Part shown: in pieces, positions 50,461-54,583 of the stretch
Layout: every line of letters begins with the position of its first letter
How positions within the stretch are numbered: the stretch's first letter is position 1
Source: Ilex aquifolium
Taxonomy: Eukaryota; Streptophyta; Magnoliopsida; Aquifoliales; Aquifoliaceae
DNA: 64,000 bases
Assembly: GCA_951799425.1 (NCBI GenBank)
Contig: OX637404.1
Coordinates: 17,508,045-17,572,044 of the forward strand
Direction of reading: 5' to 3'
Program-made: the position numbers and the translations under genes
The notes under the pieces: model-generated
The model's input: only the letters and a program-made list of their open reading frames with translations
Databases searched by the model: none
Told to the model about the DNA's origin: nothing

Positions 50461-50935
50461 TGCAATTTATGTTACATATATGAGTAATACAACTCAATAT
50501 GCTTGAGAACCTATAGATATAACGAAGATTTTGGAAAACAAGTTTTTCTCCTAGTTGGTGTTCACATAAGCAAATAACAAGTGTAAAATAACAAAAATAA
50601 AATAAAAATGAAGTGACTTCATACCAAGTTTATGAATGTACTTCCCCAGAGAATGTCAATAAACTCCCCCCTTGCTATATTCCTATACAACTAATCCCTA
50701 GCTAACAACAAGAATTTCTTCCAAAATTACTCCAAAATTCTCCCCTTTTTTGTCACGAAGTGCCAAACACACAAGCATCTATAATATAAAATAGGGCGGC
50801 TTCAGCATCTAACGGTTACAAATCAATTCATCCAACGGTCACAGATCATCTCATTTCCTCCCAAATTCATCATTTTTTACCTATAATTTTTTTCAAAAAT
50901 CTGATCAACTCAATCACTTCAAGACTTCAAGACAG

Positions 50936-51126
50936 ATGGCCTTAGTCACTTCACCTGCCGCCTGGGACATCACTTCTTCAGAGGCCATCTATTTTTTATT
51001 TCTCCACCATCTGTTACTTCTTACCTTCTCTCTCTCTCTCTCTGTTTCTTCTTACCAGCAGCACCACCGCCGCCCCAGCGACACCACCAGCAACACCACC
51101 ACCACCGCTGCTAACCCCTCCCAGGT
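50936..51126 (+). pseudogene. Possible first exon of a Helitron-3 transcript
   Basis: It is open from ATG at 50936 through Ser/Leu- and His/Thr-rich sequence to AACCCCTCCCAG|GTATGC, a good splice donor at 51127. A CT repeat lies inside (about 51024-51041). I do not recognise the protein. It may be a third captured gene or chance reading of low-complexity DNA. It could supply a start codon for a chimeric transcript. Confidence 0.3.
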
Positions 51127-51430
51127 ATGCTTCATCTCTCTCTCTCTCTCTCACACACACCCATCCTACCCCCACCTCTTCTCTCTCTCACTTCACACCC
51201 ACAGCGCACAACACCCAACAAACACAACACACACAAACCATAGTGTTTGAAGTTGATAGCAGCTTGAGTCTGAAAACCTTAGGATGTAGAGCAACCTCAT
51301 CACCCACACACAAATCGCACACACACAAACAAACCTAGCACACACACACCCAACACAGACCCAGCACACACGCACCCAGACCCACTCACCCACACAAATT
51401 GTTTGGACACCAAGTGTTTGTTGGAATTAC

Positions 51431-51487
51431 TGAGAGAAAATGATAGATGTGCATAGTTACCCACAACCTGTTGGTGGTTCCATTCCT
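51431..51487 (+). repeat. Copy 1 of a duplicated exon-like block
   Basis: GAGAAAATGATAGATGTGCA...TTCCATTCCTT is repeated at 52471-52528 with one or two differences. It reads VHSYPQPVGGSIP. The source gene is unknown. Confidence 0.6.
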
Positions 51488-51516
51488 TAATTTACATGAT
51501 TCCTGAATTAACTAAG

Positions 51517-51610
51517 AAAAGAAAATATCGACTGGTTATTGGTATTAACACAGCTTTTAGCAGCCGAAAGAGATGAGACTTTGTTCGTGCTACTACTTGG
51601 ATGCCACAAG
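51517..51610 (+). pseudogene. Captured exon of a GT31 beta-1,3-galactosyltransferase (part 1)
   Basis: Reads [15 protein letters not shown], one stop, then [11 protein letters not shown]. In plant GT31 enzymes (B3GALT and HPGT families, Golgi) this is [23 protein letters not shown]. An acceptor-like AG lies before it (AACTAAG) and a donor after it (CACAAG|GTTCAT). The stop replaces the second Arg of RKRRDS, and one extra Thr codon is present. The DxD-containing part is absent. Confidence 0.65.
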
Positions 51611-51746
51611 GTTCATGAAATTCCCTGCATGCATTTGTGCTTAGTTTTCTGTTTTTATTTTCTTCAAATTTCAATTTAGCTAATTCTGATTTTGCTTTTG
51701 TAAATTTAATTCATAAGTAACTTGTCTTTTTTGGTGTGAAAATTAG

Positions 51747-51810
51747 GTGATAAACAAAAGAAGCTCGAGGAAGAAAAGGGCATTATAATTCGATTTGTAA
51801 TAGGTCACAG
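51747..51810 (+). pseudogene. Captured exon of a GT31 beta-1,3-galactosyltransferase (part 2)
   Basis: Between AAAATTAG and the donor CACAG|GTGGGC it reads [20 protein letters not shown], the next exon of the same gene family (relatives: [22 protein letters not shown]). The natural exon order is kept. Confidence 0.7.
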
Positions 51811-52470
51811 GTGGGCGATAGACACTCAAAGTTTATTAGGTACACCTATTTCTTTTATATTTTTCAAGTTTGTGATTTTTGCTTCAAAATTTCTGTTGAA
51901 TCTTTCGTTGCACATGGTAATTTGGTTGTCACTCACTCTCCTAGGATTTTTCTCCATATCTTAGTTTTATTGTGCTCTCAATATAGTGATCCCTTGGGAG
52001 TCTTAATAGTTTTAGTATCTTTGAAGTGTCTTGCATGCAATCAATCATCTCAGATTGAAGGAGGATTGTCGCTTATATGATGCGTTATCTTTTTTCTTGA
52101 AAAAGTCATCCAGTTACATCAGTTAGTACATGTTAGTATGCTTTAACTGATGACCTTTCACCCTTACCTGTATTGTTGGATTAAATCAAATTATCGGACT
52201 GATAGAGTGACAATAGAGCAGCTTACATTGTCTCACCTTTCATTTTCTAGATGAATCTTTTTTTTTAATAGGAGAAAGACAAGAGGTTTACCTGCTTCAT
52301 GCAATGAGCTATTTCATACAACAAGCTTAGAAACTAGGCTGTTGATGAGGGTGGCAAATTTAGAAATTGATACTACCTGGTGAAGATAATTCAAAACCAC
52401 TTTGAATCAGGACAAAAGAATAGATGATGTTGATAGAAGGAATAATGAGAATATTGATAAGACTTTTCTG

Positions 52471-52570
52471 GAGAGAAAATGATAAATGTGCATAGTTACC
52501 CACAACCTGTTGGTGGTTCCATTCCTTCTGTGATCAACCAACATCCGATGACGACAGTTCAGCCCAAGTA
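52471..52570 (+). pseudogene. Exon-like block of an unknown gene, copy 2
   Basis: Reads MINVHSYPQPVGGSIPSV, then INQHPMTTVQPK, and stays open to 52628. The first 58 bp duplicates 51431-51487. The sequence looks like a real exon (varied composition, Pro/Gln-rich) but I cannot name the gene. Confidence 0.4.
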
Positions 52571-52815
52571 CCTCCCATTCCCCCTCTCTTTCCCGTAAAT
52601 CCACTACAGAGGTCTCCCCACTGTTCAATCTTTTGGGGTTTTCTTTATAGATTTTTATGTATGTCTTCCTTTCTTTTTGGTTTTCCTTTTGTTTTTCGTG
52701 CTGGGTATTAATGCCTATGCTGTTATGACCTAAAACATTGTTTCCAATCCCTTTTATTTGGGTTGCAATTTGACTAATGTAATCTGGTATTTTATGTAGG
52801 GTTTGTTAGATTCAG

Positions 52816-52953
52816 AAAGAAGCTGTTTCGCAGAAGTTTCCTGAAAGATCAAAGGAAAAGGCTGGACGATCGCAATCAACTACATTTAAATCGTTTGGTG
52901 GTCAAAGAAAAGGCTCCAAAGGGTTCCTGTTGGACTCAAAGGAGTAGCAGCAG
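52816..52953 (+). pseudogene. Captured exon of plastid protease DEG2 (part 1)
   Basis: After the acceptor TTCAG it reads KEAVSQKFPERSKEK, then STTFKSFGGQRKGSKGFL and a stop after LDSKE. It ends at AGCAG|GTATGA. It corresponds to the segment of plant DEG2 (chloroplast Do-like serine protease 2) between the transit peptide and the protease domain (Arabidopsis: MAFKAFGSPKKEKKESL). Without the protease domain it has no catalytic function. Confidence 0.65.
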
Positions 52954-53350
52954 GTATGAAGGGAATTCAATTTTTTTCTTTTCTTGGATAGCCCCTGTTC
53001 AGTTGTAAGTATCGTAAGTATCGGAAAAGCCTGCATGACTTTTGTTTATCCTTATTCCTGGAGTAATTGGTTTTTGAATTTTTTGTTAAGTTAAAAAGAC
53101 TGATAATATAACAAATTCACAACTTGGTGATCTTTACCCGAAGGCCGAAGCAAATTGGATCTTTGTTTCCTTTATTGATCTTTCTAGGGGATATTTGGCC
53201 TTTTGGACATTATATCCCCTATACTTAGTTTGATGATCTAATGCTTATTTTATGCTGGTTATTACGATTATGTTGAGTTGTTTCTGCCTGAGTTCCACCT
53301 GTCTAAGTCTTCTGTTGTATGGTGTCTAAGTTTCCATGACTTCTCCCCAG

Positions 53351-53401
53351 GTAGAAACAGGTAATCTTCGAGATGCAGCTTTTCTCAATGCTGTTGTGAA
53401 G
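53351..53401 (+). pseudogene. Captured exon of plastid protease DEG2 (part 2)
   Basis: A 51-bp exon between CCCCAG and G|GTAAATAT. It reads VETGNLRDAAFLNAVVK, which matches DEG2 just before the protease domain (relatives: ...DASFLNAVVKVYCTH). The next exon seems to start at 54084 as GTATAC (VY) after TTTTCAG, but only four codons survive before GTAAGT at 54096. Confidence 0.75.
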
Positions 53402-54554
53402 GTAAATATATGTTTTGATTATTGGAAATATTTTAATTTACAGTTATCAAACCAAACTCTGTGAAGCATTGTGGAGCTGAATATCACATGTTTCCCAAAC
53501 TCTTCTGTACGATTTTCTGGCATGTTATTCTACCAGCATGGCTTTAAATGCATCACTGATTATTTTAAATAATGCTTATTTGTTAAGGTTGGAGCTTATG
53601 CTAATGCTAATGTTGTGAATGTGTGGTCTTTATGAACTATTTTGTTTTTCATTTCAATAGAACTTGCATTATGTAGCAGTAGACAATTGATGATGATATC
53701 CTTCACTAGAGTGCTCCGTGTATTGTTCAGAAAGTTCTCAAGATACTCAATTGATTTGATTGCCAAGAATAATATTTTGGTTGTCTGATGTTTTTATGAG
53801 TTTCTTGACCAAGTTTGGATCAAGTATCTGTGTGTTTTACCAAAAGGTGATTGAAGAAAGTGTTTGCAGCTAATCTACGATAAGACTTTTGTTTCCATTG
53901 ATGGTTTGATGTTGTTCTGCTGATATGTATGTGGAGTATAAATGTACACTTACCTTTGACATTGACCTTATCCCATTGCCTATGTTTGAGATGCAAAATA
54001 CCTTAAAAGTAAGGGGTTTTACGTTTCGGATTTATAATTGTTTTATTTTGCCTCACATATTTCGATAATTTTTATATTTTCAGGTATACATTGATGTAAG
54101 TTATAAAGAAGATGAAGTTTTTTTTTCTATTTGTGCATGTGTGTATTTTTTGTGTTCCGTCTTTTGTAAAGTTAACTAATTATACATGGTTATGATGATT
54201 TTGGGTATGGAATGATGGTTGTTTTGGTGGTTGGGTATGTATTGATGATTGTGGTGATATGGTGTATTATAATGATTGTTATTCATGATTGTAAGTTTTG
54301 TAGACAGGTTTAGATTTTTCTGGGCTTCTATTTTTAAAGGAAACTCTACCGGAATTTCTTGAAATTATTAGGAATTAGCTTGATGTTTTGGTGGTTGGAT
54401 ATGTGTTGATGATTGAGTATGTATTAATTATTGTATGGTGAATTATGATGATTGTTATGTCTGATTGTAAGTTCTATAGACATGTTGTTTTAGGTTGCAA
54501 AGAGTCTTTAGGTAATGTAGTATTTTTCGAGTTTTAATCTAATTTTTCGTTATT

Positions 54555-54583
54555 CCGTGCCTTCAGGCACGGACAATTACTAG
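54555..54583 (+). other. Helitron-3 3' hairpin and CTAG end
   Basis: CCGTGCC TTCA GGCACGG, then seven bases, then CTAG and host T. This is the terminator-like signal that marks the end of rolling-circle transfer in Helitrons. Confidence 0.8.

Follow-up and report, generated by a model that had tools for sequence, protein, structure and literature searches.

A non-autonomous Helitron of Ilex aquifolium with well-supported DEG2 and likely GT31 gene pieces

A stretch of 64,000 nucleotides from Ilex aquifolium (assembly GCA_951799425.1, contig OX637404.1, positions 17,508,045 to 17,572,044 of the forward strand), hereafter the window, contains a Helitron with pieces of host genes inside it. We hold with high confidence that a plant non-autonomous Helitron acquired host DEG2 DNA, and probably GT31 beta-1,3-galactosyltransferase DNA, together with introns, and then inserted at its present place. 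The identity of the element as a Helitron is well supported. Its features are listed in Table 1.

Table 1. Positions within the window of the Helitron, its termini and its internal pieces.
Feature	Position	Strand	Basis	Remark
Non-autonomous Helitron, 3,806 bp	50778-54583	+	sequence	flanked by A (50777) and T (54584)
5' terminus TCTATAATATAAAATAGGGCGGC	50778-50800	+	sequence	fits loosened, not strict, maize helA 5' pattern
Possible leader exon	50936-51124	+		189 nt; 63 open codons from ATG, then donor GTATGC
57-bp direct repeat, copy 1, left of GT31 piece	51432-51488	+		56/57 identical to copy 2
Likely GT31 exon piece	51509-51610	+		in-frame stop; left boundary uncertain
Likely GT31 exon piece	51747-51810	+		right boundary uncertain
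57-bp direct repeat, copy 2, right of GT31 piece	52471-52527	+		56/57 identical to copy 1
DEG2 exon piece (KEAVSQKF..GRSQSTTFKSFGGQRKGSKGFLLDSKE, stop, QQ)	52816-52953	+		in-frame stop before QQ; left boundary uncertain
DEG2 exon (VETGNLRDAAFLNAVVK)	53351-53401	+		phase 0 at both ends
Start of next DEG2 exon (acceptor TTTCAG, then VY..)	54084-54090	+		probable capture breakpoint
Duplicated subterminal block	54220-54486	+		54220-54310 and 54402-54486, 78% identical
3' terminus: GC-rich hairpin, short spacer, CTAG	54554-54583	+	string scan and folding

The sequence-only reading had proposed Helitron ends of the form A/TC...hairpin...CTAG/T, and both were found at exactly the positions it gave. 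On the left, an A is followed by TCTATAATATAAAATAGGG (50777/50778), with TC as the 5' terminus; on the right, CCGTGCCTTCAGGCACGGACAATTACTAG is followed by T (54583/54584), with CTAG as the 3' terminus. No target-site duplication of 1-11 nt was found at the 50778 and 54583 ends. Terminal inverted repeats were absent, the first and last 30 positions matching at 7/30; nine inverted pairs were found, none of them linking one end of the element to the other. A TC start, a CTRR end (here CTAG) with a GC-rich hairpin upstream and the lack of terminal inverted repeats are the marks of a canonical Helitron, and borders of A and T without duplication, judged from the occupied site alone, correspond to the canonical A/T insertion. 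The available part of PMC6591975 describes canonical Helitrons by the same TC, CTAG, GC-rich hairpin and AT site. No RepHel ORF was found in the element (0 of the 12 window ORFs of at least 150 aa fall within it), a Pfam scan of 12 element pieces gave no match to a Rep or helicase family, and the longest minus-strand stop-to-stop stretch in the element has 132 codons. Since no RepHel frame was found, the element is classed as non-autonomous, as the Helitron class allows.

The 3' hairpin was recovered by two procedures. A string scan gave a 9-bp stem with a 2-nt loop, 6 nt ahead of CTAG, and DNA folding gave an 8-bp stem with a 4-nt loop (z-score -3.91; 0/200 shuffles as good). The window has a single occurrence of the 3' end pattern, and 0/100 shuffles had any. 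CTAGT preceded by a perfect GC-rich stem of 8 bp or more was observed once and was present in none of 100 dinucleotide shuffles. When the stem was shortened to at least 7 bp, two ends were observed, one per strand, with at least one in 7/100 shuffles and two in 0/100. At 6 bp or more, two were again observed, with at least one in 13/100 shuffles and two in 1/100; single-base shuffles gave such a match in 6/30. A short-stem CTAGT end alone is therefore weak evidence, and because shuffles yield shorter stems, the evidential weight rests on the long stem and not on the general shape. Two CTGGT ends with short stems also lie on the plus strand, at 21619 and 37927.

Sibling elements were sought within the window. 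For the 3' pattern there was no match besides the element's own end, and the 5' pattern matched itself and one site with three mismatches at 390-409, which has no TC and was taken as chance. BLAST within the window returned internal repeats only. Exact scans for the element ends gave 0 matches in viral_contigs; in genome_contigs, the 20-base hairpin occurred in two bacterial contigs, taken as chance palindromes. No Rfam family reached its gathering score in the window.

The internal gene pieces were then compared with known proteins. The sequence-only reading had described DEG2 exons on the plus strand with introns and splice signals kept, and this was borne out. The two predicted DEG2 introns (52954-53350 and 53402-54083) both have GT..AG borders and remove cleanly, and the joined translation, which crosses both joins, matches 'Protease Do-like 2, chloroplastic' (PDB 4FLN) at an E value of 2e-6 over query residues 17-68. 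This protein, which we take to be DEG2, was the sole distinct PDB sequence matched by the piece at E up to 10. The likeness stops after roughly two residues of the third exon, and this end, near 54084-54090, is probably a capture breakpoint. The DEG2 piece carries one in-frame stop. Of 15 pattern matches to it in viral_contigs, none was confirmed by tblastn as a relative. Taken as a prediction from sequence comparison, the capture of DEG2 is well supported.

The case for GT31 is moderately supported: its capture appears likely, and weaker than that of DEG2. The proposed GT31 exons with an intron between them gained from the GT..AG borders of that intron (51611-51746) and from a Pfam match to the very family that had been named, but the score was under the cut-off and no PDB match was found for the piece. 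Against Galactosyl_T (PF01762), the piece scored E 0.062 and 13.5 bits, where the cut-off is 23, and a shorter joined version scored E 0.092. The comparison was made among 24,736 models; the match is more telling than such an E value implies, because the family had been named beforehand. The peptide around 'WMPQG' is closely like plant GT31 proteins. One in-frame stop lies in this piece as well. Pattern matches to it numbered 115 in genome_contigs and 26 in viral_contigs, and none was confirmed by tblastn; a plant gene would scarcely be expected in these bacterial and viral collections. No PDB or Pfam match was found for a third piece that might be coding, running from about 52465 ('SYPQPVGGSIPSVINQHPMTTVQPK'). 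The Pathogen_betaC1 match (Pfam E 0.0041, under the cut-off) of an X-masked, His/Asn-rich translation of the minus strand was put down to low complexity and rejected. A text search of the literature found no paper printing the GT31 or DEG2 peptides.

Given the stops in both pieces and the lack of a sibling element within the window, two decayed local gene duplicates, that is, pseudogenes lying between chance Helitron-like ends, would offer another account. However, each piece is a short, incomplete run of exons, both are on one strand, and they lie inside exact TC..hairpin..CTAG ends with A/T borders; chance would not be expected to give so long a stem at a 3' end, as the 0/100 shuffles indicate. 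Furthermore, five short motifs from the remaining parts of DEG2/trypsin and GT31 were absent from the six frames of the window, which is a weak test. We regard the pseudogene account as very unlikely.

The possible leader exon raises the question of an expressed chimeric gene. Its sequence is CT- and ACC-rich and has no Pfam match. A first exon with ATG and donor had been proposed at 50936-51126; the ATG and donor are present, but the exon ends at 51124 and the donor GT occupies 51125-51126. We inspected singly the joins of this leader to the acceptors at 51747, 52816 and 53351, out of 173 joins made. The join to the GT31 'DKQKK' exon at 51747 is out of frame and meets a stop after 13 residues, which is at odds with the proposed run from leader into GT31. 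The join at 52816 gives 43 residues, up to the stop within that DEG2 piece. Finally, the join to DEG2 exon 2 at 53351 is in frame and stays open through exon 3 (63+17+31 codons, 111 residues). Of the suggested chimera of leader, GT31 and DEG2, the GT31 part is thus lost to the stop, and an in-frame join to DEG2 exon 2 is retained at the level of sequence. An expressed gene encoding this predicted 111-residue protein would draw on that open join with its GT..AG borders, but the leader is low-complexity, an in-frame join arises by chance in about 1 in 3 cases by simple reasoning, and the DEG2 share would be only about 19 residues. We consider such a gene highly improbable.

The window also contains, on the minus strand at 30758-32718, FAR1, MULE and SWIM domain stretches in three frames, from a MULE-type transposase or a FAR1-like gene in pieces. 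Capture by a Pack-MULE or another inverted-repeat DNA transposon, to which these stretches might point, is scarcely credible for an element with neither a 1-11 nt target-site duplication nor inverted terminal repeats.

A second Helitron-like element lies on the minus strand at 7581-9299 (1,719 bp), with the start TCTATACTACTAATAAAAG, another such start at 8953, and the 3' end CACGTGCAACGCACGTGGTGCATTGCTAG followed by T. In BLAST it matches the first element over 13 bp at best (E 0.23), and its 7-bp stem alone is within chance (7/100 shuffles). Next to it, a probable LTR retrotransposon (9394-22500) has 616-bp terminal direct repeats that are 93% identical and holds a 2.1-kb tandem duplication (16877-19002 and 18998-21123, 97.7% identical); several of its minus-strand frames look pol-like by eye. 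An 86-bp tandem repeat of 2.2 copies (97% matches) is found at 38184-38375. LTR-like direct repeats flank the Helitron, 47477-47918 pairing with 61144-61556 (68% identical) and 49549-49672 with 61617-61740 (77%). Because these lie on both sides, the Helitron may sit inside an old retroelement. To its right, four minus-strand stretches searched with Pfam showed no retroelement domain, and the minus-strand frame 59187-59507, which has no Pfam match, looks to us gag-like. A Utp12 match in the right flank (Pfam E 0.077, under the cut-off) was taken as chance. Joining the flanks across the Helitron site gave no long open frame, which is neutral on whether a gene was interrupted.

We return to the Helitron that captured host DNA. 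The source of the capture would be genomic DNA, because the introns in the pieces, two in DEG2 and one in GT31, keep their GT..AG borders. Genomic DNA of DEG2, which encodes a plastid Deg/HtrA protease, and probably of the GT31 gene would have been taken up with introns included. The capture may have occurred during the repair of breaks inside the element, as filler DNA. After acquiring the gene pieces, the element would have inserted into its present place, moving by rolling-circle transposition with a RepHel protein supplied in trans, as the known family suggests. Transposition, the order and mechanism of capture, and any transcription are steps that we infer. Filler-DNA capture is favoured over simple bypass of the 3' end, since the gene pieces sit well inside the element. 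End bypass has been demonstrated experimentally for Helraiser, according to the part of PMC4778049 available, and capture inside insect Helitrons argues against simple end bypass in the accessible portion of PMC6544945, where the filler-DNA model is also described. The 57-bp direct repeat around the GT31 piece, its copies spaced 982 bp apart, fits capture by break repair and might be a footprint of it. That it records a single capture, in which the repair of a break inside the element copied in a GT31 segment and copied 57 bp of the element a second time, is a possibility that we hold only tentatively and think rather doubtful.

The element was also compared with described Helitrons. It has in common with non-autonomous plant Helitrons that capture genes, maize helA for example, as far as the sources at hand describe them, the 5'-TC, the GC-rich 3' hairpin, CTAG, insertion between A and T, and gene fragments. 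The strict helA and helB patterns, as given in the part of PMC3288121 available, did not match the element; in loosened form, the maize patterns matched both ends. The loosened 5' pattern also matched two minus-strand sites, at 9300 and 8954. The same part of PMC3288121 puts the share of identified maize Helitrons with gene fragments at over ninety percent. A literature search for Helitrons having captured a galactosyltransferase or DEG2 found no paper. Like HelibatN3, as outlined in the accessible section of PMC4778049, the element contains a leader that carries an ATG and a splice donor and could act as an exon trap. In HelibatN3, according to that section, the leader codons, promoter and splice donor come from NUBPL, whereas no source was identified for the possible leader exon described here. 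Transcripts of maize Helitrons in which pieces of different genes are fused have been described, although most captured pieces are dead remnants, according to the available portion of PMC4528327; expressed captures in plants are reported by a review, in the part of it at hand (PMC13317346).

The element is an ordinary Helitron gene capture, as such elements are known to make. It provides a cleanly bounded example with a possible footprint of a capture step. If the footprint reading of the 57-bp repeat is true, one capture step can be read from a single copy of an element. Siblings without the GT31 piece, in which the 57-bp block is single, would directly test the filler-DNA model and raise the importance of this element.
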